This document shows, in pieces, positions 16,304 through 63,699 of a stretch of DNA of 64,000 nucleotides. Every line of letters begins with the position of its first letter. Position 1 is the first letter of the stretch. The DNA is from Actinokineospora baliensis. Its GTDB lineage: Bacteria; Actinomycetota; Actinomycetes; Mycobacteriales; Pseudonocardiaceae. The position numbers and the translations under genes were made by a program. Under the pieces are notes generated by a model. It was not told the origin of the DNA and ran no database searches. It was given only the letters and a program-made list of their open reading frames with translations. The stretch is taken from NCBI RefSeq assembly GCF_016907695.1, contig NZ_JAFBCK010000001.1, positions 6,126,001 to 6,190,000 on the forward strand, written 5' to 3'.

Positions 16304-16448
16304 GCTCGATGGGGTGGACCTGTTTTGTGTGGGGGGACGGCAGCCGTAGCGTCGCCTCGCTGCAGGGCCATGCTTTTCGGCCCCTGCTTTGCGGTCCTGC
16401 CACGGCTGTCGTAGGGGCCCCACGCAAAACAGGTCCACCACATCGAGC
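16304..16448 (-). repeat. Palindromic intergenic element, copy 1
   Basis: This 145-bp unit starts GCTCGATGGGGTGGACCTG and ends with its complement CAGGTCCACCACATCGAGC; the ~31-nt arms differ at two positions. The core, read on the minus strand, contains GGGGCCGAAAAGCATGGCC, a small internal stem-loop. It is closest to copy 7. It lies between the convergent genes qor and marR. Confidence 0.9.
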
Positions 16449-16512
16449 CTGCACTCAAATCGCGGATCGGCGCGCGATGCCGCAGGCGAGCCGATGATCC
16501 GATGCAATGCCG

Positions 16513-16627
16513 AAGGCGAGCCGAAGATCATCTAACCCGAAAGCCCCCGATATCCACCCTACCGAGGCACACCGACAAAACAGGCGCCGCAAGAAAGCCT
16601 GTGGACAGCCACCCGTGTTGTGGACAA
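16513..16627 (-). repeat. Conserved module with DnaA-box-like 9-mers, copy 1
   Basis: On the minus strand it holds TTGTCCACA (16619-16627) and CTGTCCACA (16600-16608), then TTGTCGGTGTGC and ATATCGGGGGCTTT. The same order recurs at 40854-40945 and, shortened, at 22542-22615. TTGTCCACA is the actinobacterial DnaA-box form. The function here is unknown. Confidence 0.6.
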
Positions 16628-16632
16628 CGCGG

Positions 16633-17082
16633 TCACCGCTCCGGCCGCACCGCCCGATCGATCCCCAGCGTCGTCACCAATTCCACCAACTGCAGCCGAA
16701 ACGCCTCATAATCCCGCACGGCCCCCAGTACCTCCGGTGCCTCCCGCTCCGCCCGCAGCGCGTCCGCGTGCACCACCCGCCCCGCGTCCGTCAGCGTCAC
16801 CAGCATCCGGCGCCGATCCGAGGGGTCCGTCCCCCGCTCCACGAAGCCCGCTCGGTGCAGCCGCTCCACTGTTCGGCTCATCGTTTGGTCGGTGACCTTG
16901 GCGCCGTGGGCCAGGGCTCGTTGGGTGCGGGGGCCGTCGAGCAGGAGGTGCAGGGCGATGAGGCCCGCGTGGGTGAGGCCGCGGGTGGCCAGGAACTCCT
17001 GCCAGGAGTGCTCCACCAACCGCGCCGCGACCGACAGCAGGCGGCCGGTCGGCCAGGAGGCCACCGGGTCCGGCATGTCCAC
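16633..17082 (-). CDS. MarR-family transcriptional repressor
   Basis: This 149-aa winged-helix regulator has the recognition-helix segment VTDQTMSRTVERLHRAGFVERG near residues 63-84 and the wing DPSDRRRMLVTLTDAG that defines MarR proteins. It is divergent from the MMPL exporter, with an 83-bp gap containing a perfect 9-bp inverted repeat that should be its operator. It probably represses itself and the exporter until a ligand binds. ATG 17082 has a GGAGGG ribosome-binding site; an in-frame ATG two codons later is the alternative. Confidence 0.92.
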   Translation of the reverse strand: MDMPDPVASWPTGRLLSVAARLVEHSWQEFLATRGLTHAGLIALHLLLDGPRTQRALAHGAKVTDQTMSRTVERLHRAGFVERGTDPSDRRRMLVTLTDAGRVVHADALRAEREAPEVLGAVRDYEAFRLQLVELVTTLGIDRAVRPER

Positions 17083-17102
17083 CCTCCTCCGCCCGAGTTG
17101 CG

Positions 17103-17122
17103 TTGTTCAGCGTGCTGAACAA
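17103..17122. promoter_or_regulatory. MarR operator between marR and the MMPL exporter
   Basis: TTGTTCAGC-GT-GCTGAACAA is a perfect 9-bp inverted repeat with a 2-bp spacer, centred in the divergent promoter region. Length and symmetry are typical of MarR binding sites. Confidence 0.8.
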
Positions 17123-17165
17123 TTATGTGTCGCGACCCCACGCCGGTACCCGCACTAGGGACGCG

Positions 17166-19214
17166 ATGACAGACAACCGTACCCGCGCCGCAGCGGCGCG
17201 CTGGATCCTGCCCGCACTGCTCATCGTCGCCTGGTTGGTGGTCGGTGGGATCGGCGGACCCCTGCAGGGCCAGCTCAGCACCGTCCAGCGCAACGACAAC
17301 GCCGCGTTCCTGCCCGAGTCCGCCGAGTCGACCAGGGTGGCCGAGCTGCAGAAGGGCTTCGCCGAGCAGAGCTCGCTGCCCGCGGTGCTGGTCTTCGAAC
17401 GGCCCGGCGGGCTGACCGGGGAGGACCAGCGGGCGATCACCGCGGCGCTCGCCGAGGTGGCCGGGGTGCCCGGCGTCGGGCCGGTAACCCCGCTGAAGCT
17501 GTCCACACAGGACAAGGACGCCGCCCAGTCGGTCGCGCTGCTGCCGACCGGGGGCGAGAAGCCGCGCGAGGTGGTCGCCGACATCCGGGAGAAGCTCGCC
17601 GGGTTGCCCGAGGGGCTGGCGGCGCACGTGACCGGGCCCGGCGGGCTGATCGCCGATTTCACCGCGGCCTTCGGCGGGATCGACGGCCTGCTGCTGGGGG
17701 TGACCGCGGCGGTAGTCGCGCTGATCCTGGTGGTGGTCTACCGCAGTCCCCTGCTGCCGTTCGTGGTCCTGCTGACCGCCGGGCTCGCGTTGTGCCTGGC
17801 GGTGGCGGTCGTGTACGCGCTGGCCAAGGCCGAGGTGCTGACCCTCAACGGGCAGAGCCAGGGCATCCTGTTCATCCTCGTCTTCGGCGCCGCCACCGAC
17901 TACGCGCTGCTGCTGATCGCCCGCCTGCGCGAGGAGTTGCGCCGCCACGAGTCCAAGGTCGCGGCCACAAAGGCGGCCCTGCGGGCGGCGGCGGGACCCA
18001 TCGCGGCGTCAGCGGGCACCGTGATCGCCGGTCTGCTCTGCCTGCTGATCTCCGACCTGCGGTCCAACTCCAGCCTGGGCCCGGTGGCCGCGATCGGCAT
18101 CGCCGCGTCGCTGGCCGCCTCGCTGACCTTCCTGCCCGCGGTGCTGGTGTTGTTGGGACGGACCGCTTTCTGGCCGTCGCGACCGAAGTACGGGTCCGCC
18201 GAGGAGGAGCGGCCCACGCGCGGGGTATGGCCGAAGGTCGCCGGGCTGGTCGGTCGCAGGCCGCGCGCGGTCTGGCTGTTGAGCACGCTGCTGTTGGCGA
18301 TCGGTGTCGGGTTCCTCCCGCAGTTGCGCTCCGACGGCGTGGCGCAGAGCGAGCTGTTCCTCACCGAGGTCGATTCGGTCACCGGGCAGCAGGTGTTGGC
18401 CCGCCACTTCCCCGCGGGCACCGGCTCCCCCGCCATCCTGATCACGGCGGCGGGCTCGGCCGAGGAGGTCGTGCGGATCGCCAAGGACACCGAGGGCGTC
18501 GCCGACGCCGGACCGCGCACCGCGAAGATCGTCGATGGCCGCGTCGAGCTCTCCGCGCTGCTCAAGGACGCGGCCGACAGCCCCAACGCGCTCGACACCG
18601 TGCAGCGGCTGCGCGAGCGGACCCGCGACGTCGGCGGCACCCTGGTCGGCGGGCCCAGCGCCAGCCAACTCGACGTGCGCACCAGTTCGCTGCACGACCG
18701 CAAGATCATCATCCCGGTGGTGCTCGCGGTGATCTTCGCCATCCTGGCGCTGCTGCTGCGCGCGCTGCTGGCCCCGCTGCTGCTGATCGGCACCGTCGTG
18801 CTCTCGTTCGCCGCCACGCTGGGGGTGAGCGCGCTGGTGTTCAACCACGTGTTCGACTTCCCCGGGGCGGACCCGAGCGTGCCGCTGTTCGCGTTCGTGT
18901 TCCTGGTGGCGCTGGGCATCGACTACAACATCTTCCTGATGACCCGGGTCCGCGAAGAGGCGCTCGTGCACGGCACCCGCGACGGCGCGCTGCGCGGGCT
19001 CACCGTCACCGGAGGTGTGATCACCTCGGCCGGTGTGGTGCTGGCGGCCACCTTCGCCGCGCTGGCGGTGCTGCCGATCCTGTTCCTGGCGCAGATCGCG
19101 TTCCTGGTGGCCTTCGGCGTGCTGCTCGACACGCTGCTGGTGCGGTCGCTGCTGGTGCCCGCGCTGACCGTCGACATAGGACGCAAGATCTGGTGGCCGA
19201 GCAAGGTGGGCTGA
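17166..19214 (+). CDS. MMPL/RND-family membrane exporter
   Basis: This 682-aa transporter has 12 predicted spans in two repeats. Each repeat has one span, a large outer loop (about residues 40-170 and 390-500), then five spans. The MMPL proton-relay motifs are GAATDYALLLIARLREE and ALGIDYNIFLMTRVREE. It is likely a proton-driven exporter of lipid-like or toxic compounds under control of the adjacent MarR. ATG 17166 follows an AGGGA ribosome-binding site; the frame is open upstream through the operator, which rules out earlier starts. The substrate is unknown. Confidence 0.93.
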   Translation: MTDNRTRAAAARWILPALLIVAWLVVGGIGGPLQGQLSTVQRNDNAAFLPESAESTRVAELQKGFAEQSSLPAVLVFERPGGLTGEDQRAITAALAEVAGVPGVGPVTPLKLSTQDKDAAQSVALLPTGGEKPREVVADIREKLAGLPEGLAAHVTGPGGLIADFTAAFGGIDGLLLGVTAAVVALILVVVYRSPLLPFVVLLTAGLALCLAVAVVYALAKAEVLTLNGQSQGILFILVFGAATDYALLLIARLREELRRHESKVAATKAALRAAAGPIAASAGTVIAGLLCLLISDLRSNSSLGPVAAIGIAASLAASLTFLPAVLVLLGRTAFWPSRPKYGSAEEERPTRGVWPKVAGLVGRRPRAVWLLSTLLLAIGVGFLPQLRSDGVAQSELFLTEVDSVTGQQVLARHFPAGTGSPAILITAAGSAEEVVRIAKDTEGVADAGPRTAKIVDGRVELSALLKDAADSPNALDTVQRLRERTRDVGGTLVGGPSASQLDVRTSSLHDRKIIIPVVLAVIFAILALLLRALLAPLLLIGTVVLSFAATLGVSALVFNHVFDFPGADPSVPLFAFVFLVALGIDYNIFLMTRVREEALVHGTRDGALRGLTVTGGVITSAGVVLAATFAALAVLPILFLAQIAFLVAFGVLLDTLLVRSLLVPALTVDIGRKIWWPSKVG

Positions 19215-19223
19215 GACGTGAGA

Positions 19224-19251
19224 GGGGCGCGCCCGGAATCGGGCGCGCCCC
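19224..19251. terminator. Bidirectional hairpin terminator
   Basis: A perfect 12-bp stem GGGGCGCGCCCG / CGGGCGCGCCCC with a GAAT loop lies between the convergent MMPL and FKBP genes. Confidence 0.8.
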
Positions 19252-19272
19252 TGGGCAATCAAGAGACAGTGG

Positions 19273-19878
19273 TCAGGAGACCTTCACCGCGTCGATGACG
19301 AACACCAGGGTCTCGTTGGGCGCGATGCTGGTGTTGCCCCGCGCGCCGTAGCCCTTGTCCGGCGGCACGACCAGCAGCCTGCGGCCGCCCTGCTTCATCC
19401 CGGTCAGGCCCTCGTTCCAGCCCGCGATCACCTGGGCCTGGCCCACGTTCTCCAGCGGAAACGGCTGGCCGCTGTCCCAGGAGGAGTCCTTCTCCTGGCG
19501 GTCGGACCAGGTCACCAGCACGTAGTGGGTGTCCATGGTGACGCCCGGCTTGACCTCGGGGCCGGTGCCCTCGATGAGGTCCTTGCTCTGCAGGCCGGTC
19601 GGCGCGCCGCACGCGGGCGGGATGGTGATCTTCGGCTTGCTGCCCGCCGCGCCCTCGACCAGCACGTCGTCGACCGAGCACTCGGCGCCGCCGCCCTGCT
19701 GCTTGGTCGCCGACGGCGCGACCGTGGTGGGCGCCGCGGCGCTGCTGGAGGTGGGGCGCGCCTTGGCGCTCACCGTCGCGTCACCGGGGGGCTGGGTCGA
19801 GGCCTGCTCGGAGTTGGCGCAGGCGGTGAGGCTGACCCCCACGGCTACCGCGATCATGAACTTGCCGACGTTGCGCAT
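19273..19878 (-). CDS. Lipoprotein FKBP-type peptidyl-prolyl isomerase
   Basis: This 201-aa protein is exported and lipid-anchored: the signal peptide ends in the lipobox SLTAC with the modified residue C20. A low-complexity Ser/Thr/Ala/Pro linker (about 21-65) precedes the FKBP domain (about 100-201). That domain carries TMDTHYVLVTWSD, QVIAGWNEGLTGMKQGGRR and VPPDKGYGARG, the hallmark FKBP segments. It likely folds proteins outside the membrane. Two further cysteines (C67, C89) could form a disulfide. A leaderless -10 element precedes the ATG. Confidence 0.92.
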   Translation of the reverse strand: MRNVGKFMIAVAVGVSLTACANSEQASTQPPGDATVSAKARPTSSSAAAPTTVAPSATKQQGGGAECSVDDVLVEGAAGSKPKITIPPACGAPTGLQSKDLIEGTGPEVKPGVTMDTHYVLVTWSDRQEKDSSWDSGQPFPLENVGQAQVIAGWNEGLTGMKQGGRRLLVVPPDKGYGARGNTSIAPNETLVFVIDAVKVS

Positions 19879-19884
19879 GGCGGC

Positions 19885-19890
19885 AGCCTA
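19885..19890 (-). promoter_or_regulatory. -10 element TAGGCT of the FKBP gene, probable leaderless start
   Basis: On the minus strand TAGGCT ends 6 nt before ATG 19878. Confidence 0.45.
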
Positions 19891-20068
19891 GGTGGCGCGG
19901 CGGACCGGGGCACCAGGTGCCCCGCCACCGGTGGCGGAAAGGCACCCACCGCGGCGCTCACCCGATATTCGCAACCCACGCCCCAGGTGGTCGGCGTAAA
20001 GTGACTGTGAGCGCCCGTTCGGATACCGCAAGCGGTCCAGCCGGGCGTCGGTCGAGGAGGTGACCGCC

Positions 20069-21073
20069 TTGCCCGCGGACGCCAAAGGCCTCCGCTCCCA
20101 CCCCATCCAGGACCTGTTCTGGACCCGCACCGGCCTGCTGCTGTTCGTCATGCTCGTCGTGTCCGGGCTCTCGATGTGGGTGTCCAGCGAGCTCGACCCC
20201 GGCCTCGGCAAGAACCTGCTCACCGCGCTGGGCACCGGGACCCTGGTCTCCTCGGTGGTCGGCTTCGGCCAGACCCTGATCACCGCGAGCGCCGCCCAGC
20301 GCGCCATGGTCACCCCGGTGATCGAGGAGAGCCGCAAGGCGCTGCGCGAGCTGTCGGCGGAGTACCGCTCGCTCAACCAGGAGTTCTTCCCCACGCACGT
20401 GTTCGAGGCCAGCACCGAACCGGACCCGGCGTTCAACGCGCTGATCATGACCGACCTGCGGCAGACCAGGCAGCTGTGGTTCCGCGGCTTCTCCGGCCGC
20501 TACGCCGCGGCCAGGATGCTGCTCTCGCCCGCGCAGTGGGAGGTGCGCGCGGTGCTGGCCGACCCGCGCGAGCGCGGCGCGATCAGCGGCCGCGCCAGGC
20601 ACCTGGCCAGGCACCAGGGCGCCAGCGCCGACTTCGAGCAGATCCAGCGGACCCTGCACGAGGAGATCCGGATCGGCCTGGTCGGGCTGTACCTGGCGCG
20701 CGGGCGCTGCGCGGGCATCGACGTCACCGTGATCGCCGACCCGCCGCTTGACCGGGTCGAGCTGTTCGACGACTGCGTGTGGATCACGCTCTACAGCGCG
20801 GTCGCGGGCGCGCCGTCGCTGTACCCGCGCACGCTGCGCTTCTCCGAGGGCTCGTTCATCTACGACATGCAGCGCGCGGAGTTCGCCAGGGTGCACGCCG
20901 CGCGCGAGGCGCACCGGTTCGTGCTCACCCCCGACACCGGCCGCGCCGAGTTCTGCGCGCACTTCGCCGCGATCACCGGCTCCTCCCTGTCCGAGGCCGA
21001 GTTCCTCGACCTGGAGGCGAAGTTCCACCAGTTCCGCCACGAGTTCTCCACCAAAGCCGAGCTTGAGAGCTGA
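20069..21073 (+). CDS. Membrane-anchored protein with large cytoplasmic domain, function unknown
   Basis: This protein of about 334 aa has two N-terminal spans (TGLLLFVMLVVSGLSMWV and NLLTALGTGTLVSSVVGFG, within residues 21-70). About 260 soluble residues follow, with WFRGFSGRYAAARMLL, VRAVLADPRERGAISGRA and a strand pattern SLYPRTLRFSEG. The soluble part weakly recalls PLD-like signalling domains, but no HKD motif is present. GAGGAGG at 20054-20060 lies too close to GTG 20060 but is 8 nt from TTG 20069, which I prefer as start. It is the first gene of an apparent cluster with a cupin and an HD protein. Confidence 0.7.
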   Translation: MPADAKGLRSHPIQDLFWTRTGLLLFVMLVVSGLSMWVSSELDPGLGKNLLTALGTGTLVSSVVGFGQTLITASAAQRAMVTPVIEESRKALRELSAEYRSLNQEFFPTHVFEASTEPDPAFNALIMTDLRQTRQLWFRGFSGRYAAARMLLSPAQWEVRAVLADPRERGAISGRARHLARHQGASADFEQIQRTLHEEIRIGLVGLYLARGRCAGIDVTVIADPPLDRVELFDDCVWITLYSAVAGAPSLYPRTLRFSEGSFIYDMQRAEFARVHAAREAHRFVLTPDTGRAEFCAHFAAITGSSLSEAEFLDLEAKFHQFRHEFSTKAELES

Positions 21074-21077
21074 TGCC

Positions 21078-21737
21078 GTGTCCTCCCCGGTGCCCGCGCT
21101 GTCCCAGCTGGCACAGCGCATGCGCGAGATCGACCCCGTCCCCCGTCCCGACCTCCCCTACCCCGCCGCGCACTGGTCCGAGGTGTACGACGGCGTCTCG
21201 TCCTGGGTGGACGGTGCGGTGCTGCGCGCCGTGCTGCGCCGCCACTTCGCCGACCTCGACCCGCGGCGGGCGGAGGCGTTGGCGGCCCGTTCCCGCGAGA
21301 CCACCACGCACTTCGCCTGGTGCCTGCGCGACCGCCCGGCCGAGCCGTTCACCTTCTGGCTGCACGAGTACAAACCCCGGCACGAGTGGCGGCCGGGGTA
21401 CGCCGATTCGGTGCACAACCACCGGTACCACTTCTGCACGGTGATCCTGCGCGGCGGCTACCGGCACGAGCGCTACGCCACCGACCTGGACCGGACCACG
21501 GGGTTGATCACCGGGGTGCGGCTGACCAGGCGCACCGAGTGCCTGGCAGGCGACTCCGGGTTCCTCACCGCCGAGGACTTCCACCGCATCCCGCGCGCCG
21601 AGGACGGCACGATGACGTTCCTGGTCAAGTCGCGGCCGGTGCGCAGGTGGAGCCTGTCGTGGGACCCGTCGACGGGGATCGGGCACCGGCACGTCCCGGT
21701 CGAGTCCCGGCTGGAGGAGCTCACCAGGCGGCTGTGA
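21078..21737 (+). CDS. Cupin-like protein, function unknown
   Basis: This 219-aa protein has a predicted beta-barrel core with the metal-binding-type motif SVHNHRYHFCTVILRGGY (His residues at 113, 115 and 118). It is followed about 35 residues later by a second strand pair ending GFLTAEDFHRIPR, as in cupins. The rest has a helical N-terminal half. GTG 21078 has a GAGAG site upstream and starts 5 nt after the preceding stop, so the two genes are likely co-transcribed. It could be an oxygenase or a ligand-binding regulator; the sequence does not decide. Confidence 0.7.
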   Translation: MSSPVPALSQLAQRMREIDPVPRPDLPYPAAHWSEVYDGVSSWVDGAVLRAVLRRHFADLDPRRAEALAARSRETTTHFAWCLRDRPAEPFTFWLHEYKPRHEWRPGYADSVHNHRYHFCTVILRGGYRHERYATDLDRTTGLITGVRLTRRTECLAGDSGFLTAEDFHRIPRAEDGTMTFLVKSRPVRRWSLSWDPSTGIGHRHVPVESRLEELTRRL

Positions 21738-21858
21738 CCGGGGCGGCTGTGATCAAGATGACGGTGACGTAGGCGACTGTGACGAAGGCGGCGGTGCCGC
21801 CCGGCGAGGGCCACTAGCATCACCCCACCCGTTTGTCCAACGGAAGGGGAAGGTCGCC

Positions 21859-22530
21859 ATGTCCACGCCCATCACGTCCGCGCCCGCGCTCGCGGGCACC
21901 GTCGAGCGCTCCTCGGTCACCTACGTCGAGCACCGGGTGCGCACCCTGTGCGAGCGGCACGCGAAGCGGTTGCAGTTCCACGGCTGGCACCACGTCAGCT
22001 TCGTGCGCGACAAGGCGGTGGAGTTCGCGGGCGGCAACGGCTCCGACGTGGCCGTGGTGGAGACCGCCGCGCTGGTGCACGACGTCAACTACCTGGTGCG
22101 GCGCAACTCCACGGCGGCGGTGGGCAGCGGCCTGCGGATGGCGATCCTGGCCGACGCGGGCGTGCCGGACCCGGTGGCCGAGTGGATCGACGCGATCGTC
22201 GACGAGGCCGAGATGCGCACCCGCCACCGCCACATCTCCCGCGAGGCGCAGGCGCTCAGCGACGCGGACACCCTGTTCAAGGCGCTGCCGGTGACCCCGG
22301 TGGTGCTGGCGCACAAGTACCTGGCGGAGAACGGGGTGAGCCTGCGCGAACTGGCCGACAAGATCGTCGGCGAGCAGCGCGACCCGCACGCCGAGGGCTT
22401 CTACTTCTACTCCCCCGCCGCGGCCGCCGCCTACTCCCGCTGGGCGACGGCGAACCTGGAACTGTGGCAGTGCATCAAGGAGTCCCTCGACGACCCCACC
22501 GTGGAACGGCTACTCACCGCTGTCGCCTGA
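21859..22530 (+). CDS. HD-domain phosphohydrolase-like protein
   Basis: This 223-aa protein has the metal-binding residues of the HD superfamily: H44 (HGWHHVSF), H74 and D75 (ALVHDVNYL) and D137 (LSDADTLFK). Such enzymes hydrolyse phosphate esters of nucleotides or metabolites; the substrate is unknown. ATG 21859 follows GGAAGGGGAAGG with good spacing. The 121-bp gap after the cupin gene has a TAGCAT hexamer (21815-21820), so the gene may also have its own promoter. It completes a trio with the membrane protein and the cupin. Confidence 0.85.
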   Translation: MSTPITSAPALAGTVERSSVTYVEHRVRTLCERHAKRLQFHGWHHVSFVRDKAVEFAGGNGSDVAVVETAALVHDVNYLVRRNSTAAVGSGLRMAILADAGVPDPVAEWIDAIVDEAEMRTRHRHISREAQALSDADTLFKALPVTPVVLAHKYLAENGVSLRELADKIVGEQRDPHAEGFYFYSPAAAAAYSRWATANLELWQCIKESLDDPTVERLLTAVA

Positions 22531-22541
22531 CCGGGTCCACG

Positions 22542-22615
22542 TTGTCCACAGGCCCCCGGTCACCGCGACCGAAATGTCCGCCCTGCTCGGTATGCTGTGT
22601 ATCGGGGGCTGCTCA
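22542..22615 (+). repeat. Shortened DnaA-box module, copy 3
   Basis: TTGTCCACA at 22542-22550 is followed by ATGTCCGCCCTGCTCGGTA and CTGTGTATCGGGGGCT. This is the same order as the modules at 16.5 and 40.9 kb, but no palindromic element follows. It fills most of the gap between the HD gene and ctaB. Confidence 0.5.
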
Positions 22616-22656
22616 GACCGGTTCGATCTTGGTCAGCACGTCAGAACGTCACAGCG

Positions 22657-40804: not shown

Positions 40805-40853
40805 GGTTGTGGGTGGCGGCCCCGTGTCCCTGTGGGATGCGGGGCCGCTGCCG

Positions 40854-40945
40854 TTATCCACAATGCGGGTTCTTGTGCACAGGCTCTTTTCGCGGCGCCG
40901 GATCTGTCGGTGTGCGCCGGTAAGCTGTGTATTCGGGGGCTTTTG
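40854..40945 (+). repeat. Conserved module with DnaA-box-like 9-mers, copy 2
   Basis: TTATCCACA (40854-40862), a perfect classical DnaA box, and TTGTGCACA (40873-40881) precede CTGTCGGTGTGCGCCGGTA and TGTGTATTCGGGGGCTTT. Order and spacing match the module at 16513-16627. Confidence 0.6.
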
Positions 40946-41057
40946 TGGCGGGTGATCTTCGGTGGACGCCTCGCCTGCGGCATCGGGGGCGGTTCGTAGT
41001 GGTGCGGCGGGTCGGCTCGCCTTCGGCATCGCGACCCGGGTCGTGGTGGTGCGGTGT

Positions 41058-41203
41058 GCTCGATGGGGCGAACTCGGTTTGCGCGGGGCCCCTGCGCCAC
41101 CCGTGGCAGGACCGCAAAAGCCGGGGCCGAAAAGCATGGCCCTGCAGCGAGGCAAGGCTACGGATACCGCTCCCCCACACAAACCAAGTCCGCCCCATCG
41201 AGC
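41058..41203 (+). repeat. Palindromic intergenic element, copy 2
   Basis: This 146-bp unit starts GCTCGATGGGGCGAACTCGG and ends CCAAGTCCGCCCCATCGAGC. The core GGGGCCGAAAAGCATGGCC reads on the plus strand. It is nearly identical to copy 6, and the similarity extends left into TCGTGGTGGTGCGGT. The tag TTCCGAGTGTCCAGTGGT follows at 41219. Confidence 0.9.
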
Positions 41204-41261
41204 AGTTGGGTGGGCGGCTTCCGAGTGTCCAGTGGTTGCTTGGGTGGGCTGACTCAAAGAA

Positions 41262-41310
41262 AGACTGCGGCCCCGCACATCCCGAAGAGGGATGTGCGGG
41301 GCCGCAGTCT
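41262..41310. terminator. Strong bidirectional terminator after rbpA
   Basis: A perfect 22-bp stem (41262-41283 with 41289-41310, core CTGCGGCCCCGCACATCCC) has a 5-nt GAAGA loop. On the minus strand it is followed by TTCTTTGAG. It is the best terminator in the window, 23 nt beyond the rbpA stop. Confidence 0.85.
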
Positions 41311-41332
41311 AAACAAGGTCTCTCGGGATACC

Positions 41333-44181: not shown

Positions 44182-45288
<1,107 letters not shown>

Positions 45289-45502
45289 TCAGGAGGTCAG
45301 CGGTCTCTCTTTATCGAATCAGACCTCGGGGCCTGGGACAACTGTTCGACGAGCGGATAGTCGGACGGCACAGCAGTGCGGCGCTGTGACCGAATCGCCT
45401 GTATCGGAACCGGTTCCGAAGGCGCGGGTCACGGGTTTCGGCTTCGCCGTCGGATCATCGGCTCGCCTGCGGCATCGGGGGCGGTCCGCGAGAGTGCGGT
45501 GG

Positions 45503-45649
45503 GCTCGATGGGGTGGACCTGTTTGTGCGGGGCCCCTGCGACACCCGTGCTGGGCCTGAAAAGCTGGGGGCCAAAGGGACGGCCCAGCCAGCCGCCGGTC
45601 AGGCTACGGGTGCCGCACCCCCACACAAAACAGGTCCACCCCATCGAGC
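45503..45649 (+). repeat. Palindromic intergenic element, copy 3
   Basis: This 147-bp unit starts GCTCGATGGGGTGGACCTG and ends CAGGTCCACCCCATCGAGC, with exactly matching outer arms. The core is diverged (CTGAAAAGCTGGGGGCC). A leader with GATCATCGGCTCGCCTGC precedes it at 45453, as at 16.5 and 63.5 kb. Confidence 0.9.
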
Positions 45650-45659
45650 AGAGCATGCG

Positions 45660-45883
45660 GGCGGCCTCCGGGAGCCGTGGCCGGGCTGGCGGGGTGGGCT
45701 CGGGGGGCTGAGTTGGGCGGGCTGGCTCGGGGGCTGGGTTGGGCGGGCTGGCTCGGGGGCTGGGTTGGGTTGGGTGGGCCGGCTCGGGGGGCGGGTTGAG
45801 CGGGCTGGCTCGGGAGGCTGGGCCAGGCGGGCCAACTCGGGGGGCTGGTTTGGGCGGGCCAGCTCGAGGGGCTGGGCGCGGCG
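45660..45883 (+). repeat. G-rich tandem repeats after copy 3
   Basis: Units of about 26 to 30 bp follow the form GGCTGGGTTGGGCGGGCTGG-CTCGGG. GGGTTGGGCGGGCTGGCTCGG plus GGG satisfies a four-tract G-quadruplex pattern several times on the plus strand. Between copies 4 and 5 (46029-46150) a shorter block of the same type appears. Confidence 0.8.
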
Positions 45884-46028
45884 GCTCGATGGGGCGGACT
45901 TGTTTTGCGTGGGGTGGCGGCAGTCGTAGCGTTCTGCGCGGACAGGGCCATGCTTTTCGGCCCCAGCTTTGCGGTCCTGCCACGGCTGGTGCAGGGGCCC
46001 CGCGCAAAACAAGTTCGCCCCATCGAGC
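45884..46028 (-). repeat. Palindromic intergenic element, copy 4
   Basis: This 145-bp unit starts GCTCGATGGGGCGGACTTG and ends CAAGTTCGCCCCATCGAGC. The core reads in the opposite sense to copies 2, 6 and 7. It is very close to copy 5, 267 bp further on, suggesting a local tandem duplication that included the following G-rich block. Confidence 0.9.
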
Positions 46029-46150
46029 AGTTGGGGCGAGCGGCCTCTGAGAGCAGTGGCGGGGCTGGCGCGGCTGACTCGGGGGGCTGAGTTGGGCGGG
46101 CTGGCTCGGAGGCTGGGTCGGGTGGGCCAGCTCGAGGGCTGAATGTGACG

Positions 46151-46295
46151 GCTCGATGGGGCGGACTTGTTTTGCGCGGGGTGGCGGCAGTCGTAGCGTT
46201 GTGCGCGGACAGGGCCATGCTTTTCGGCCCCAGCTTTGCGGTCCTGCCACGGCTGGCGCAGGGGCCCCGCGCAAAACAAGTCCGCCCCATCGAGC
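46151..46295 (-). repeat. Palindromic intergenic element, copy 5
   Basis: This 145-bp unit starts GCTCGATGGGGCGGACTTG and ends CAAGTCCGCCCCATCGAGC, so the outer arms match perfectly. It is the tandem partner of copy 4. Confidence 0.9.
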
Positions 46296-46417
46296 AGTTA
46301 GAGGCAGCGGCTTCCTGGGAGCGGTGGCCGGCTAGCGGGGCTGACTCGGTGGGGCGGGCTGGCGGGGTTGGCTCGGTGGGCTGGGTTGGCGGGGCCGGTT
46401 CGTGGTGGTGCGGTTGG

Positions 46418-46564
46418 GCTCGATAGGGCGAACTCGGTTTGCGCGGGGCCCCTGCGCCACCCCGTGGCAGGACCGCAAAAGCCGGGGCCGAAAAGCATGG
46501 CCCTGCAGCGAGGCAAGGCTACGGATACCGCCACCCCACACAAACCAAGTCCGCCCCATCGAGC
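46418..46564 (+). repeat. Palindromic intergenic element, copy 6
   Basis: This 147-bp unit starts GCTCGATAGGGCGAACTCGG and ends CCAAGTCCGCCCCATCGAGC. It is almost identical to copy 2, 5.4 kb away, including the left flank CGTGGTGGTGCGGT. The tag TTCCGAGTGTCCAGTGGTCG follows at 46579. Confidence 0.9.
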
Positions 46565-46673
46565 AGTTGGCACCTCGGGTTCCGAGTGTCCAGTGGTCGG
46601 GTTGGGCGGGTTGGGGCTGCTATGCGGGGTGGCAGTGGAGTGGGTTGGGCCAGCCTGAGTTCTGGGCATGGCA

Positions 46674-46720
46674 GTGGCGTGGAGTCCGCCAGCCCCCACG
46701 CCGGGCGGACTCCACGCCAC
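46674..46720 (-). terminator. Hairpin downstream of whiA
   Basis: A perfect 17-bp stem GTGGCGTGGAGTCCGCC / GGCGGACTCCACGCCAC has a 13-nt loop, 141 nt beyond the whiA stop. It probably ends the uvrC-whiA transcript. Confidence 0.65.
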
Positions 46721-46735
46721 TTCCCCCCTGGGTGT

Positions 46736-46765
46736 GCGGGTGCCCCTCCCCCAAGCGGCACCCGC
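46736..46765 (-). terminator. Second hairpin downstream of whiA
   Basis: The arms GCGGGTGCC and GGCACCCGC (9 bp) enclose a 12-nt C-rich loop, closer to whiA than the 17-bp hairpin. The pair may act together. Confidence 0.5.
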
Positions 46766-46860
46766 GCTCCCGGAAGTCAGGAGGCGGGGGGAAGCGGTCC
46801 AGATACCGGGCGAGACCCAGATCACAACGGTTGTTGGTGGGTTGCCCACCGGGCGTGGGG

Positions 46861-47847
46861 TCAGGCGTCGGCTTCGAGCATGTCGGGGGTGACGGCGGAT
46901 TCGGTGTCGGGGAGGCCGAGGTCCTTGGCGCGTTTGTCGGCCATGGCCAGGAGGCGGCGGATGCGGCCCGCGACGGCGTCCTTGGTCATGGGGGGGTCGG
47001 AGAGTTGGCCGAGTTCCTCGAGGGAGGCCTGCTTGTTCTGCAGGCGCAGCTCACCCGCCGCGGTGAGGTGTTCGGGGGCGTCGGGGCCGAGGATCTCCAT
47101 TGCGCGCTGGACGCGGGCGGCGGCGGCGACGGCGGCGCGGGCGGAGCGGCGGAGGTTGGCGTCGTCGAAGTTGGCCAGGCGGTTGGCGGTGGCTCGGACC
47201 TCGCGGCGCATCCGGCGCTCTTCCCAGGCGAGCACGCTGGAGTGGGCGCCGAGGCGGGTCAGCAGGGCGCCGATGGCGTCGCCGTCGCGCACGACGACGC
47301 GGTCGGCGCCGCGGACCTCGCGGGACTTGGCGGCGATGCCCATCCGGCGGGCGGCGCCGACGATGGCCAGCGCGGCCTCGGGGCCGGGGCAGGTGATCTC
47401 CAGCGCCGACGAGCGGCCGGGTTCGGTGAGCGAGCCGTGCGCCAGGAACGCGCCGCGCCAGGCGGCCTCGGCGTCGCAGACGCCGCCGGAGACCACGGGG
47501 GCGGGCAGGCCGCGGACCGGGCGGCCGCGCGGGTCGAGCAGGCCGGTCTGCCTGGCCAGCCCGTCGCCGTCCTTGACCACGCGCACGACGTAGCGGGTGC
47601 CCTTGCGCAGGCCGCCGGAGGTGATCACGTGGACGTCGGCGTGGTGGCCGTAGAGCTCGTGGATCTCCTTGCGCAGCCGCCTGGCGGTGGCGCCGGTGTC
47701 CAGTTCGGCCTCGACGACCACCCGGCCCGCCACGATGTGCAGGCCCCCGGCGAAGCGCAGCAGCGAGGACACCTCGGCGCGGCGGCAACAGGTCTTGGCC
47801 ACGGCCAGCCTGCTGAGCTCGTCCTTGACTGCGGCGGTCATCGCCAC
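46861..47847 (-). CDS. whiA: WhiA, sporulation/cell-division regulator
   Basis: This 328-aa DNA-binding protein is required with WhiB for sporulation septation in actinomycetes. It has a LAGLIDADG-like N-terminal domain ([19 protein letters not shown] near 20-38; [21 protein letters not shown]) and a C-terminal helix-turn-helix ([23 protein letters not shown]). GTG 47847 has GAGGAGGA upstream and gives the family start [11 protein letters not shown]. It follows yvcK by 64 bp. Confidence 0.97.
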
Positions 47848-54782: not shown

Positions 54783-54788
54783 ATGCTA
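54783..54788 (-). promoter_or_regulatory. -10 element TAGCAT of the mazEF operon
   Basis: On the minus strand TAGCAT ends 7 nt before GTG 54775. Confidence 0.5.
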
Positions 54789-54817
54789 CCCCGGTTGCCA
54801 CCGGGGTGGCCACCACG

Positions 54818-57607
<2,790 letters not shown>

Positions 57608-57620
57608 CGGCGGCTCCTCC

Positions 57621-58640: not shown

Positions 58641-58735
58641 GCCGGACAGTCTCCCAGCTCGGGCCCGCCTCCCGGCAGCGGGTCGACCGGAAGTCGCCGG
58701 TCCACAGTGGACTCCAGGGCGGCCGGGCCCGCGGG

Positions 58736-59419
58736 TCAGGCCGGGACGAAGCGGTGGTTGGCGGAGCGGGCCTGGTCACGCAGCGCGGTGATCGCGCGGG
58801 CCGGGTCGGCGGCGCCGTAGACGGCCGAGCCCGCCACGAAGCAGTCGACGCCCGCCTCGGCGGCCAGCTCGACGGTGTCGGCGTTGATGCCGCCGTCGAT
58901 CTCGACCAGCAGGTTGAGGTGGCCGGTGTCCACCAAGCGGCGCAGCGTGCGGACCTTGTCGAGCACCTCGGCGATGAAGCTCTGGCCGCCGAACCCGGGC
59001 TCGACCGACATCACCAGCAGGGTGTCGTACTCGGGCAGGATCTCCAGGTACGGCTCGATCGGGGTGCCCGGCTTGACCGAAAGGCCCGCCTTGGCACCGG
59101 CGGCGCGCAGGTCGCGGGCGATGCGGACCGGGTCGGTGGCGGCCTCGACGTGCACGGTGACGTTGTGCGCGCCCGCCTCGGCGTACCCGACCGCCCACCG
59201 GTCGGGGTCGGAGATCATCAGGTGGCAGTCCATCGGGATGTCGGTCACCTTGAGCAGCGACTCGACGATCGGCAGGCCCAGCGTCAGGTTCGGCACGAAG
59301 TGCGCGTCCATCACGTCCACGTGGACCCAGTCGGCCCCCTCGATGGCGGCGAGCTCGTCGGCGAGCCTGGCGAAGTCCGCAGACAGGATGCTGGGGGCGA
59401 TCATCGGGGAGGTCGACAC
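58736..59419 (-). CDS. rpe: Ribulose-phosphate 3-epimerase
   Basis: This 227-aa enzyme interconverts ribulose-5-P and xylulose-5-P, serving the pentose phosphate genes elsewhere in the window and ribulose-5-P supply to RibBA. The motifs [48 protein letters not shown] and VEIDGGIN are all present. GTG 59419 has a -10 element 8 nt upstream. It likely heads rpe-ribD-ribE-ribBA-ribH. Confidence 0.98.
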
Positions 59420-59427
59420 GAGTGCCC

Positions 59428-59433
59428 AGTCTA
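59428..59433 (-). promoter_or_regulatory. -10 element TAGACT of rpe, probable leaderless start
   Basis: On the minus strand TAGACT ends 8 nt before GTG 59419; no ribosome-binding site is present. Confidence 0.45.
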
Positions 59434-59452
59434 AGTCAGACCGGTGGGGCGC

Positions 59453-60373
59453 TCAGACGAGGGCGAGGACGGCGTCCGCGCTCCCCCACGAGTGGCTGAC
59501 GCCCATGCCGCCGTGCCCGTAGTTGTGCACCACCAGCGCCTCGCCGACCCGTTCGGCTTCTAGCCGCGGCGTGGCCCGCCACGGCCGCAGCCCGACCCGG
59601 TGCTCGACCACCCCGGCGTCGGCCAGCCTCGGCTCCACGGCAGAGCAGCGAGCGATGATCCCGGCGGCGACCAGCGCGTCCGGGGTGCGGTCCCACACGT
59701 CGGGGCGGGTGATGCCGCCCAGCACGACGTGGTCGCCGTGCGGGAAGAACCCGGCCCACTCGTCGCCGAGGACGGCCTCGATGTAGTACTCGTCGAGCCC
59801 GGGGTTCTCGACGACGACGTGCTGGCCCCAGAACGGCCGCACGCCCTCGTCGCCCGCCAGTTCCCTGGCGCCGACGCCGGTGCAGTTGACCACCACGGGC
59901 GCCTCGGCCGCGGGTTCGGCCAGCGAGGCGACCCGGCGGATCTCGATCTCGACGTCCAACCGCGCGACCAGGTGGTCGAGGTAGCGGGGCATGTCGACGA
60001 CGGGCACGGTGGTCTTCATGCCGACGCGCATGCCCGGCCGCAGCTCGTCCGGCTCCAGCATCCGGACCTCGGGCAGCCGGTCCACCCACGGCGGCGGTTC
60101 GTCCTGGATGTCGGAGGCCTGGGTGCCACGGCACAGGTGCACACCGGTCGCCGGGTCGGCGGCGAGCCCGGTCAGCTCGGGCTGGGTGGCGTAGGCCCAC
60201 GCGCGCCCCGGGTCGGTGAAGTCGGGTCCCCACAACGCGGCCGCCACGGCCGAGGTGGTCTCCGCGGGCGGTTCGGCGGCCCACACCCGAACCCGCGCGC
60301 CGGAGTCGGCCAGCCGGATGGCGGTGCTGAGCCCGATGACCCCCGCGCCGATGACGATCGCGTCCGCTGCCAT
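59453..60373 (-). CDS. FAD-dependent oxidase, D-amino-acid oxidase family
   Basis: This 306-aa flavoprotein has the FAD motif IVIGAGVIGLSTAIRLA near the N-terminus and the DAAO family C-terminal block HNYGHGGMGVSHSWGSA. GLRPWRATPRLE carries the conserved Arg that binds the substrate carboxylate. It likely oxidises a D-amino acid; the exact substrate is not evident. A -10 element lies 6 nt upstream of the ATG. It is divergent from a Nudix gene across only 49 bp. Confidence 0.88.
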   Translation of the reverse strand: MAADAIVIGAGVIGLSTAIRLADSGARVRVWAAEPPAETTSAVAAALWGPDFTDPGRAWAYATQPELTGLAADPATGVHLCRGTQASDIQDEPPPWVDRLPEVRMLEPDELRPGMRVGMKTTVPVVDMPRYLDHLVARLDVEIEIRRVASLAEPAAEAPVVVNCTGVGARELAGDEGVRPFWGQHVVVENPGLDEYYIEAVLGDEWAGFFPHGDHVVLGGITRPDVWDRTPDALVAAGIIARCSAVEPRLADAGVVEHRVGLRPWRATPRLEAERVGEALVVHNYGHGGMGVSHSWGSADAVLALV

Positions 60374-60379
60374 GGCCGC

Positions 60380-60385
60380 ACGCTA
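60380..60385 (-). promoter_or_regulatory. -10 element TAGCGT of the DAAO-family gene
   Basis: On the minus strand TAGCGT ends 6 nt before ATG 60373. Confidence 0.45.
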
Positions 60386-60408
60386 CCCCGCCGCGTCACC
60401 CGCTTGGG

Positions 60409-60414
60409 TAGGTT
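60409..60414 (+). promoter_or_regulatory. -10 element TAGGTT of the Nudix gene
   Basis: TAGGTT ends 8 nt before GTG 60423. With the opposing -10 at 60380-60385, two leaderless promoters sit within 49 bp. Confidence 0.45.
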
Positions 60415-60422
60415 GACCTCCT

Positions 60423-60890
60423 GTGAACCGGTCCCTGCGGGTGGCGGCCTACGCCGTGTGCGTCGAGGCGGAGAAGATCCTGCTCGCCAGGTGGGTGGGG
60501 CGCACCGAGAAGAAGTGGACGCTGCCCGGCGGCGGGATCGACCACGGCGAGGACCCGCTGGACGCGGTGGTGCGCGAGGTGGCCGAGGAGACCGGGTACG
60601 CGGTGCGGGTGGACGCGCTGCTGGGCATCCACTCGGTGCGCCGCCGGTTCGAGCGCACCGGGCTGCGGCGAGCGCTGACCAGGGCGGGCAACGCGACCGA
60701 CTGGCACGGGCTGCGGGTGGTGTACGCGGCGACGATCACCGGCGGGGAGCTGACCTTCGAACAGGACGGGTCGACCGACATGGCCGCCTGGGTCGACCTG
60801 GCCGAGGTGTCCACAGTGGACCGGACGGACCTGGTGGACGTCGCGCTGCAGCTCGCGACGCGCAAACCGCCGACCGGGCACGCGGACTGA
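60423..60890 (+). CDS. Nudix hydrolase
   Basis: This 155-aa enzyme has a complete Nudix box, G37-x5-E43-x7-REVAEE-x-G (GGGIDHGEDPLDAVVREVAE), so it should hydrolyse a nucleoside diphosphate linked to another group. The substrate is unknown. The start GTG 60423 is predicted leaderless. Confidence 0.9.
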   Translation: MNRSLRVAAYAVCVEAEKILLARWVGRTEKKWTLPGGGIDHGEDPLDAVVREVAEETGYAVRVDALLGIHSVRRRFERTGLRRALTRAGNATDWHGLRVVYAATITGGELTFEQDGSTDMAAWVDLAEVSTVDRTDLVDVALQLATRKPPTGHAD

Positions 60891-60896
60891 ACTCCT

Positions 60897-60916
60897 TTTC
60901 CGCATACGTGCGGAAA
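60897..60916 (+). terminator. Hairpin after the Nudix gene
   Basis: TTTCCGCA-TACG-TGCGGAAA is a perfect 8-bp stem with a 4-nt loop, 6 nt beyond the Nudix stop. It could instead be an operator for the peroxidase gene downstream. Confidence 0.5.
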
Positions 60917-61097
60917 TAAGTCATGCGCGCATTCCTCAGGAGGCGGGGCACCATTTTCCGGTAGCCTGGCCGCGGGGAGGAGTTCGGTACCGGCGCCGGT
61001 TCTCTGGGGAGGGAACTCGGTACGGCGCGGTACCCGCTCGCCCCTTTCTCCCGGGGGCCGCCGTGTGGTCCCCCGGCCGGACAGTGGGGGTTCACCA

Positions 61098-62744
61098 ATG
61101 GCTCGACGCCATGCCAGAGACAGTTTCCTCATCGTCGGCGAAGGGGTGGTGGAGTCGACCGCGGACGGCACCCCGCTGACCCGCGCGCCGTCCACCGAGG
61201 AGGAACTGCGCCGATTCCGCTTCTCCCGCCTCGGCCCGAAGGGCAACCGGACCGACGAGGCGCTGCGCACCGCGCTGGCCACCGCCATCACCGAAGCCGG
61301 GGCCGCGCAGCCGGACGGGTCGATCCCGGCCGGTTTCACCTACCTCGGCCAGTTCGTCGACCACGACCTGACCATCGACAGGACCGCGACCCAGCTCGGG
61401 TCCGAGGTCACGGTGGACGAGCTGGTGCAGGGCCGCTCGCCCGCGCTGGACCTGGACTCGCTCTACGGCCGCGGCCCGCTCGACCGCCACGACCGGCGCT
61501 TCTACGCCGAGGACCAGGTCAAGCTCAAGGTCGGCACCACGTCGGCGACCGACTTCCCCGACGACCGGGTGCGGGTCGACCTGGAGGGCTTCGACCTGCC
61601 CCGCAAGGGCGGCACCTCGGGGACCGGGGCCGACCGGCGCGAGCCGCTGATCCCGGACCTGCGCAACGACGAGAACCTGGCCGTCGCGCAGACGCACCTG
61701 GCGTTCATCCGGTTCCACAACCGCGTCGTGGACGACCTGGCGCTGTCGGGGATGAACGAGCGCCGGTTGTTCGAGGCCGCGCGCGAACAGGTGGTCAAGC
61801 ACTACCAGTGGATGTTGCGCACCGATTTCCTGCCGCGCGTGGTCGACCCGGAGATCGTGCACGAGGTGTTCACCGGTGGCCGCCGGTTCTTCGAGGCCAA
61901 CGGCCACAACCGCACCCGGCGACCGACGATGCCGGTCGAGTTCTCCGTCGCCGCGTACCGCATGGGCCACAGCATGGTGCGCGACGCCTACGAGTGGAAC
62001 CGCGTGTTCCGCACCGGCGGCCCCGGCCCGCTGGGCACGCTGCCGCTGCTGTTCACCTTCACCGGCGTCAGCGGCAACTTCACCGGCGGCTCGCTGTCCG
62101 AGTTGGACGATCCGAACTCCGGCACCGTCGACCGGTTGCCGACCAACTGGATCGCCGATTTCCGCCGCCTGTACGACTTCACCGAGGCGGGCCGTCCCGA
62201 TCTCGCGGCTCCCGAAGGCGGCGGCAACGCGGCGAAGCGGATCGACACGGTCCTGGTGGACCCGCTTGACCAGCTGCCAGCGGGCACCTTCGGCGGTCGG
62301 GGCACCGCGTTCCCCGCCGTCCACCGCAACCTCGCGTTCCGCAACCTGACCCGCGCGAGCATGGTCGAACTCGCCAGCGGCCAACAACTCGCGGCCCTGT
62401 TCGGCGTGACACCGCTCACCACCGAGCAGATCGTCGAGGGCGCTGGCGGCGCGTCGCTGAGCGGGCTGTCGCCGGAACAACGGGCAGAAGTGTCGTCGGA
62501 CACGCCGCTGTGGTTCTACGTGCTGCGCGAGGCCGAGCTCAACAACGGTGTCCTGGGCCAGGTCGGCGGTCGGATCGTGGCGGAGGTCTTCCACCGCGCG
62601 ATCGAGGCCAGCCGCGCCTCGATCGTCCGGGAACCGTGGTGGCGCCCGGCACTGGGCCCGGACTCGACCACGTTCCGGATGACCGACCTGCTGCTGTTCG
62701 CCTTCGAGGGCAAGGCGGACCTGCTCAACCCGCTCGGCGACTGA
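61098..62744 (+). CDS. Animal-type heme peroxidase
   Basis: This 548-aa protein belongs to the peroxidase-cyclooxygenase (animal heme peroxidase) superfamily, rare in bacteria. The distal His is H89 in GQFVDHDLT. NDENLAVAQTHLAFIRFHN (190-208) matches the family, and the proximal His is H291 in AYRMGHSMVRDAYEWN. No signal peptide is visible, so it is probably cytoplasmic or exported by another route. ATG 61098 has a GGGGG site; an in-frame ATG 33 nt earlier is possible. Likely roles are peroxide-driven oxidation or halogenation; substrate unknown. Confidence 0.9.
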   Translation: MARRHARDSFLIVGEGVVESTADGTPLTRAPSTEEELRRFRFSRLGPKGNRTDEALRTALATAITEAGAAQPDGSIPAGFTYLGQFVDHDLTIDRTATQLGSEVTVDELVQGRSPALDLDSLYGRGPLDRHDRRFYAEDQVKLKVGTTSATDFPDDRVRVDLEGFDLPRKGGTSGTGADRREPLIPDLRNDENLAVAQTHLAFIRFHNRVVDDLALSGMNERRLFEAAREQVVKHYQWMLRTDFLPRVVDPEIVHEVFTGGRRFFEANGHNRTRRPTMPVEFSVAAYRMGHSMVRDAYEWNRVFRTGGPGPLGTLPLLFTFTGVSGNFTGGSLSELDDPNSGTVDRLPTNWIADFRRLYDFTEAGRPDLAAPEGGGNAAKRIDTVLVDPLDQLPAGTFGGRGTAFPAVHRNLAFRNLTRASMVELASGQQLAALFGVTPLTTEQIVEGAGGASLSGLSPEQRAEVSSDTPLWFYVLREAELNNGVLGQVGGRIVAEVFHRAIEASRASIVREPWWRPALGPDSTTFRMTDLLLFAFEGKADLLNPLGD

Positions 62745-62787
62745 CCCCGCGGCCGGGGTGTCCCGCGTGGGGCACCCCGGCCCCCGG

Positions 62788-62793
62788 TAACGT
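62788..62793 (+). promoter_or_regulatory. -10 element TAACGT of the AlkD-like gene
   Basis: TAACGT ends 6 nt before GTG 62800. The CCACTGTGG palindrome (62795-62803) spans the start codon. Confidence 0.45.
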
Positions 62794-62799
62794 GCCACT

Positions 62800-63468
62800 G
62801 TGGACTTGGCCTCCGACATACGCACCCGCCTCGCCTCGGCGGGCGACCCCGGCCGGGCACCGGACATGCAGCGCTACATGAAGTCCGACATGCCCTTCCG
62901 CGGCGTCCCCAAACCCGCCAGGGACGCCCTGGTCCGCCAACTCCCCGCCCTCCACACCAGAGCCGAGTGGCTCGACGTCATCCGCCGCCTCTGGCGAGAA
63001 GCCACCCACCGCGAAGAACGCTACGTCGCCCTGGACCTGCTGCGCCGGTACCCGCGCTGGCAGGAACTCGACCTCTTGCCCCTGTACGAGGAATTCGTCG
63101 TCACCGGCGCCTGGTGGGACTATGTGGACGAACTCGCCAGCCGCCACATCGGGTCGCTGCTCATGGCCCAGCGGGACGCGGTCACCCCGGTGATGCGCGA
63201 GTGGGCGGTGTCCGAGGACCGCTGGAAACGGCGGGTAGCGGTGATCTGCCAATTGGGGGCGAAGGGGGAAACCGACCTGGCCCTGCTGGCGTTCGCGGTG
63301 GAAGCGAACGAGGCGGACGGGGACTTCTTCTTGCGCAAGGGGATCGGGTGGGCGCTGCGGCAGTACGCGCGGGTGGACGCTGACTGGGTACGGGGGTTTG
63401 TTGAGGCACATCCTGGCCTGTCGGGGTTGTCGCGGCGGGAGGCGTTGAAGCACATCTTGACCGGGTGA
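62800..63468 (+). CDS. AlkD-like DNA alkylation repair protein
   Basis: This 222-aa all-helical HEAT-repeat protein matches the AlkD family of DNA glycosylases that remove bulky or positively charged alkylated bases. RYMKSDMPFRGVPKPARDAL (25-44) is the family N-terminal pattern. ATHREERYVALDLLRR and WWDYVDELASRHIG carry the Trp and Asp of the active groove. DRWKRRVAVICQL has the conserved Arg. The length is normal. The start GTG 62800 is predicted leaderless. Confidence 0.9.
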   Translation: MDLASDIRTRLASAGDPGRAPDMQRYMKSDMPFRGVPKPARDALVRQLPALHTRAEWLDVIRRLWREATHREERYVALDLLRRYPRWQELDLLPLYEEFVVTGAWWDYVDELASRHIGSLLMAQRDAVTPVMREWAVSEDRWKRRVAVICQLGAKGETDLALLAFAVEANEADGDFFLRKGIGWALRQYARVDADWVRGFVEAHPGLSGLSRREALKHILTG

Positions 63469-63554
63469 GGGCGGGTCTCTTGTTTCGGCTTCGCCGTCGG
63501 ATCATCGGCTCGTCGCTTCGCGACCTTGCATGCCGATCCGCGATTTAAGTGCGG

Positions 63555-63699
63555 GCTCGATGTGGTGGACCTGTTTTGCGTGGGGCCCCTACGACAGCCG
63601 TGGCAGGACCGCAAAGCAGGGGCCGAAAAGCATGGCCCTGCAGCGAGGCAAGGCTACGACTATCGTCCCCCCACACAAAACAGGTCCACCCCATCGAGC
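63555..63699 (+). repeat. Palindromic intergenic element, copy 7
   Basis: This 145-bp unit starts GCTCGATGTGGTGGACCTG and ends CAGGTCCACCCCATCGAGC, with one difference in the outer arms. The core GGGGCCGAAAAGCATGGCC reads on the plus strand. It is closest to copy 1, 47 kb away. The tag TTCCGAGTGTCCAGTGGTCG follows at 63716. Confidence 0.9.

Follow-up and report, generated by a model that had tools for sequence, protein, structure and literature searches.

Hairpin-forming intergenic repeats of Actinokineospora baliensis: a family with a covarying fold, linked to DUF222-HNH genes in Kutzneria

The window analyzed here, a 64-kb stretch of the Actinokineospora baliensis genome (64,000 nucleotides; contig NZ_JAFBCK010000001.1, positions 6,126,001 to 6,190,000), contains seven copies of a palindromic element of 145-147 bp. 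Each copy starts with GCTCGAT, ends with ATCGAGC and has inverted arms of about 31 nt. The original prediction, made from the sequence alone, gave the coordinates, lengths, ends and arms of all seven correctly. Three copies (16304, 45884 and 46151) are inverted relative to the other four, and after reverse complementing these three the mean column identity across the seven is 88%. Because the copies align once three of them are turned, the family has an orientation, which the original prediction did not mention. A covariance model built from the seven copies (R1) recovered, at E <= 0.001, these seven places of the window and no others. The copies are listed below; the strand is the one that folds best, referred to as core-.

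16304..16448, plus strand: palindromic element of 145 bp; R1 match of 165.8 bits; in the convergent gap 15875-16632
41058..41203, minus strand: palindromic element of 146 bp; found by alignment and model match; in the convergent gap 40805-41332
45503..45649, minus strand: palindromic element of 147 bp, first of a four-copy cluster; alignment and model match
45884..46028, plus strand: palindromic element of 145 bp, in the opposite orientation to the first cluster copy; alignment and model match
46151..46295, plus strand: palindromic element of 145 bp; alignment and model match
46418..46564, minus strand: palindromic element of 147 bp; alignment and model match
63555..63699, minus strand: palindromic element of 145 bp; R1 match of 167 bits; in the convergent gap 63469-64013

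Other repeats accompany the copies. The gap of the 16304 copy also holds tandem 90-bp repeats of a right-flank module (window 15909-16268; family D2 of the repeat search), and degenerate G-rich repeats of the GGGCTGGGTTGGCGGGGTTGGCTCGG kind lie between and after copies at 45679-46417 and 63731-63883 (families D1 and D4).

The family and its conserved fold are well supported; the fold was assessed on 17 aligned sequences taken from 15 genomes. One strand folds into an outer stem of about 31 bp, an internal loop of 2 nt and 5 nt (GG / AGGGG), a covarying second stem and an apical hairpin. Changes on both sides are seen in 35 of the 44 base pairs. The covariation score is 0.468 compared with 0.180 +/- 0.014 for shuffled alignments, none of 500 reaching the observed value, and with at most 0.107 for slid controls, over which the structure string is favored by having been derived from folding the same aligned sequences. 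The outer 31-bp helix is 96.5% paired; in the second helix, with 75.3% of its cells paired, each of the 11 pairs has changed on both sides. The arm sequences vary between species yet stay complementary. The core had been described as able to form a stem-loop of its own; the small hairpin is indeed present, but it is the apex of one long fold rather than a separate structure. The core- strand has the lower folding energy in 14 of the 17 rows, the reverse being observed for genomes G009, G001 and G015, and it carries more G.U than A.C (42 vs 12). Read on the other strand, the arms have A.C rather than G.U pairs, 83 vs 9 in the A. baliensis genome and 102 vs 4 in its relatives, with position 14 contributing most. 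Strand-biased mutation is an alternative source of this imbalance in the arms.

The arm sequence itself is narrowly distributed. It was found in 6 of 16 Actinokineospora genomes and in 3 of 200 genomes of the family, all three Actinokineospora; among at least 120 stretches listed for a degenerate arm pattern, all are from A. diospyrosa, A. terrae and A. globicatena. The fold extends further. Model R1, with at most 150 candidates scored per genome, matched 15 of the 16 genus genomes at E <= 0.001 (one match in G015 and none in G005), so that within one genus the element ranges from no matches to about 200 copies. A second model, R2, applied with stricter filters and 15 candidates scored per genome, matched 31 of 200 family genomes and 10 of the 46 sampled genera of Pseudonocardiaceae; ten of the 31 genomes are Actinokineospora. 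In all 31 the best match has E of 8e-8 or lower; lone matches near the limit of 0.001 can be chance hairpins, as illustrated by a hit in genome G071 mentioned below. The best locus was inspected in 10 of the 21 matching genomes outside Actinokineospora, representing six genera. Nine of these ten loci have retained the two stems, the GGGG or GGAG end of the arm and a loop of five bases, of the AGGGG/AGAGG type or close to it; in eight of the nine, the second stem is also followed by a motif resembling AAGCTT or AAACT. The tenth, L312, is doubtful inside the arms. Further copies thus exist in this genome and in relatives, and the element is confined neither to A. baliensis nor to one arm sequence. 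The earlier remark that no named element has this sequence also stands: neither the window nor 11 loci from other Actinokineospora genomes reached the gathering score of any Rfam family, and relaxing the threshold for window positions 44500-47500 brought up only matches far below gathering scores. In the accessible portions of the open-access literature we found no such element described for Actinokineospora or Pseudonocardiaceae.

In two Kutzneria genomes (genus g20; G121 and G137), the palindrome is linked to genes for DUF222 proteins with an HNH motif, an association we consider supported. Such genes are the neighbors of the palindrome loci L311 and L313, and two of them match PF02720 (DUF222, REP13E12-type) at E of 7e-18 and 1e-20. 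In 800 kb of sequence, 400 kb around each locus, R2 detects seven distinct copies at E of 8.1e-8 or lower, and none of the seven is more than 470 bp away from a DUF222 reading frame. Among four close DUF222 genes, three sit between two copies and the fourth has a single copy, on its 5' side; a distant fifth gene has no copy. When the two seed elements are set aside, the association still holds for all remaining copies (3 of 3) and close genes (2 of 2). The three complete elements share one arrangement, core- being antisense in the 5' copy and sense in the 3' copy. Among neighboring copies of opposite orientation in the A. baliensis genome, 18 of 20 show the same arrangement, a count in which duplicated clusters are not independent. 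In G121, the two ends of an element are 97% and 94% identical within two elements and 81-85% identical between elements; in G137, one 5' end is 91% identical to the 3' end of the same element but 96% identical to the 5' end of another. A further 400 kb read from G071 contained no DUF222 gene and one weak R2 hit that looks unrelated.

The proteins encoded by these genes belong to a subfamily whose named hits at 55% identity or more are all from Kutzneria among the best 120 of 171 hits. Kutzneria sp. CA-103260 occurs in 16 of the 120 clusters listed for the DUF222 protein, a pattern that a multiplying gene would be expected to show. The HNH motif has invariant Cys, Asp and His residues in 30 proteins. 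The predicted DUF222 domain resembles the DNA-binding domains of ParB and Noc in a structural model whose alignment rows bear almost entirely on residues 40-157, and the closest solved structures for the HNH domain are IscB (E 8e-4) and Cas9 (E 3e-3). Searches of two DUF222 proteins against PADLOC and NCBIfam gave no match. A plasmid search with the DUF222 protein returned seven records, from Rhodococcus, Arthrobacter and Tsukamurella. No function for DUF222-HNH (REP13E12) proteins emerged from the literature searches made, and no link between DUF222 and a palindrome was found in open-access papers. A gene for a DDE_5 transposase lies directly downstream of one DUF222 element (L311 1700-2893), and the same flank follows a second element in G121.

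In the A. baliensis genome the copies are dispersed, a conclusion that is well supported. A 24-nt arm pattern allowing up to three mismatches occurs 204 times in forward and 205 times in reverse orientation in the 7.68-Mb single-contig genome, with no hits for the reversed-pattern control; these counts give about 205 copies, in line with the earlier guess of hundreds genome-wide. We read 184 of them, in 816 kb of sequence. Their lengths range from 142 to 148 bp, 66 pairs of neighboring copies are less than 600 bp apart, and tandem copies are frequently spaced by 237-278 bp. Given the single-base length variation and an upstream frame start that is not kept, a protein-coding reading through the element was rejected by eye. 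Genes were called with a home-made caller based on codon usage. All 184 copies fall in gaps between called genes at a tolerance of 60 bp, as had been claimed for the window, and for one of them the overlap with a called gene exceeds 40 bp. The 115 occupied gaps comprise 69 convergent, 39 tandem and 7 divergent ones, compared with 23, 149 and 98 among 270 empty gaps of at least 50 bp (Fisher p about 1e-25); because the segments were picked around copies, the empty gaps are neighbors of occupied ones. The same preference is seen in A. diospyrosa, A. terrae and A. globicatena, where 85 of 111 copies were placed (convergent/tandem/divergent: 56/25/2 occupied vs 33/192/106 empty). Relative to tandem genes, orientation is mixed: core+ lies on the gene strand in 43 vs 28 cases in A. 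baliensis and in 10 vs 16 in the relatives. The element was rejected as a terminator common to both convergent genes, since at 41058 the unit is already flanked on both sides by terminator-like hairpins (by eye).

The comparison of occupied and empty sites was made between species. Three of the four window sites are empty in A. globicatena, with no model match: the aligned genes are separated by 97 vs 527 bp at the 41058 site, by 414 vs 793 bp at the 16304 site and by 360 vs 1449 bp at the site of the 45503-46418 cluster. A. diospyrosa has one copy at each of these three sites. The 63555 site is part of a larger gap that did not align; in A. globicatena this gap holds a copy. The opposite case is provided by the gap at window positions 22530-22653, where a copy is present in A. 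terrae and A. globicatena and absent in A. baliensis. In this clade, the inserted DNA also comprises larger flank modules; modules of 20-50 nt form a mosaic and recur in many combinations. No target-site duplication was seen by eye in the flanks of own and other-genome copies or at occupied and empty sites, a comparison at the level of species with no closely related strain.

Copies within the genome are homogenized. Seventeen groups of identical sequences take in 40 of the 184 copies, most of them at different loci, and the median identity to the best paralog is 0.986 for the 144 copies first read. Identity between copies often stops at the element edge, and in 23 of these 144 cases the copy is reversed with respect to its conserved flanks.

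Some copies are touched by insertion sequences. A 1.6-kb pair of arms (own genome 4332292-4333907) was considered as a candidate autonomous transposon and rejected, as an IS4-like insertion has split a single copy there: at this locus (L283), a transposase gene, identified by eye from its translation, breaks a palindrome arm and is accompanied by the 10-bp duplication GCGCAAAACA. Two further partial arms lie 285 bp apart at 569133-569417. At L165, an IS3-like element (by eye) with an apparent 4-bp AACT duplication is found beside a palindrome, between the copies at 1177718 and 1179292, and IS3-like end sequences also abut copies near 1487549 and 6202487, which is reminiscent of REP-targeting insertion sequences.

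A promoter-like module often lies 5' of the palindrome. Modules occupy gaps at gene ends, each with two TTGTCCACA boxes, which we take to be DnaA-box-like. Three module positions in the window are listed below.

16542..16563, minus strand: promoter-like module core (P1/RecA-NDp-type motif and TTGTCCACA boxes), 5' of the 16304 copy
40919..40940, plus strand: promoter-like module core, 5' of the 41058 copy, with 5 mismatches to the pattern
22589..22610, plus strand: promoter-like module lacking a palindrome in A. baliensis; A. terrae and A. globicatena have one in the orthologous gap

Judged by its sequence, the module fits a P1/RecA-NDp (PafBC) promoter. The P1 consensus, tTGTCRgtg - 8 nt - TannnT, is that of a LexA-independent DNA-damage promoter (PMC5656591). 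Its strict form has 12 hits in 653 kb, 10 of them beside elements, vs none in the control. A profile built from 121 module sequences, own-genome hits included, detects 51 modules in the 816 kb and none in the reversed control. Of 118 blocks, 33 have a module no more than 500 bp away, and 33 of 34 such modules point inward; in all 23 cases examined they are directed toward the less stable strand, core+. Because of this direction and because 17 of the 51 modules are distant from elements, we rejected the module as the element's own promoter and treat it as a neighbor. A. diospyrosa carries tandem arrays of the module. In genome G106 (L307 1501-1632), genes for a Pup ligase and a WYL-domain protein flank a palindrome; by position they are perhaps pafA and pafB, which would place the palindrome next to the likely regulators of P1.

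Hairpin DNA parasites that rely on a host-borne enzyme are classically exemplified by REPINs. Our preferred explanation, to which we give a probability of roughly 0.55, is that the element is REPIN-like and non-autonomous, its autonomous form being a DUF222-HNH gene between inverted hairpin ends. It brings together directly observed features, from the covarying fold and the copy number to occupied and empty sites, homogenization and the bracketed genes. The ends would be recognized by shape and not by arm sequence. The autonomous form would be the one in Kutzneria, with an endonuclease gene between two inverted palindromes, and the solo copies of Actinokineospora would be REPIN-like derivatives tolerated mainly between convergent genes. 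As a partner, the DUF222-HNH protein may bind the extruded hairpin or the target by its ParB-like domain and cut it by its HNH domain, and repair of the cut could then spread copies. The main result against this explanation is that the A. baliensis genome contains no match to PF02720. It also contains none to the Y1/RAYT transposase family PF01797, for which the same search was positive in 5 of 14 control genomes. Since no Y1/RAYT transposase was found, a strict REPIN is not supported; of the earlier proposal of a MITE or REPIN-like element, the mobile and structured character without an Rfam counterpart has stood. A bolder version, which we regard as tentative and doubtful, is a new class of mobile element in which a ParB-like reader combined with an HNH nuclease moves DNA via a folded hairpin at both ends, acting on single-stranded DNA or on an omega-RNA-like RNA copy (cf. 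IscB), with solo hairpins as its parasites. If true, it would give the REP13E12/DUF222 family a function.

Another scenario is a multi-copy structured non-coding RNA or an RNA-processing site acting in stability, RNase III cleavage or termination, where selection on the RNA keeps the fold and spread is secondary. The covarying stems with conserved internal motifs, the strand preference in folding energy and in G.U over A.C pairs, and the inward-pointing promoter-like modules with the DNA-damage P1 motif all agree with it. However, these modules would transcribe the worse-folding core+ in every case examined, orientation to tandem genes is mixed, the 41058 unit already has terminator-like hairpins on both sides, and within the genus matches range from zero in G005 to about 200 copies; we consider this scenario unlikely. 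Distinctly unlikely, in our estimate, is that old repeats, not mobile now, owe their likeness to gene conversion and to template switching at hairpins and spread with duplicated intergenic blocks. Such a history would suit the mosaic flank modules, the tandem copies with their frequent spacing of 237-278 bp, the paired arm changes with few intermediates and the occupation of the compared sites in A. diospyrosa too, but sites occupied in one species and copy-free in another and the inverted copies bracketing DUF222-HNH genes speak against it. Sites of both kinds, together with the inverted arms, intergenic location and both orientations to flanks, would also be produced by an ordinary miniature inverted-repeat transposable element (MITE) of a DDE transposon, moved through its terminal inverted repeats. 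Here, the arms change between species and the pairing and internal motifs stay, the opposite of a terminal repeat read by sequence; moreover, no target duplication was seen by eye, and the sole long arm pair resulted from the IS4-like insertion. Neither a transposon with GCTCGAT ends nor a transposase gene carrying them, one of the original suggestions, was found among the 184 copies read, and an ordinary MITE seems very improbable.

The preferred explanation would add an apparently independent actinobacterial hairpin system with a different candidate enzyme, whose fold is kept enough to trace relatives in other genera, and it suggests for DUF222-HNH (REP13E12) proteins a role that can be put to the test. 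The genus itself provides a natural experiment, with zero matches to about 200 copies among its genomes.

Several known systems can be compared with the element. IscB works with structured RNA. The likeness to IscB and Cas9 is weak and concerns the HNH domain of the DUF222 proteins alone; nothing else of IscB matched. For a classical MITE, ends common to an autonomous transposon were seen in none of the 184 of about 205 copies, and the arms are not conserved in sequence across species. With the REP13E12/DUF222-HNH sequences, described as repetitive in mycobacteria (PMC10589994), the Kutzneria genes share the Pfam domain and the HNH motif; a palindrome is linked to the Kutzneria genes, a feature not met in the open-access text available, and the comparison covers the Kutzneria copies. 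REP/REPIN sequences are short intergenic hairpins present in hundreds of copies, some beside a single putative mobilizing gene, REPINs being paired units (PMC3116915). The element resembles them in being intergenic hairpin DNA with hundreds of copies, and the working idea of a single mobilizing gene is the same; in Kutzneria, hairpins flank three DUF222-HNH genes on both sides and one on one side, and no such gene was found in the A. baliensis genome. REPs measure 20-40 bp and have a GTAG/CGTC tag at one end (PMC3733652). The unit here is about 145 nt long with two covarying stems, and the candidate partner is a DUF222-HNH protein and not a Y1 transposase, Y1_Tnp being absent from the A. baliensis genome. 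Similar in size are ERIC (127 bp) and YPAL (about 168 bp) of enterobacteria, intergenic repeats that form long stem-loops (PMC2267715); the present element is of the same kind, being multi-copy, intergenic and folded as one stem-loop. They belong to other bacteria and have other sequences, whereas here the arms covary across species and a nuclease gene is linked to the element in one genus.

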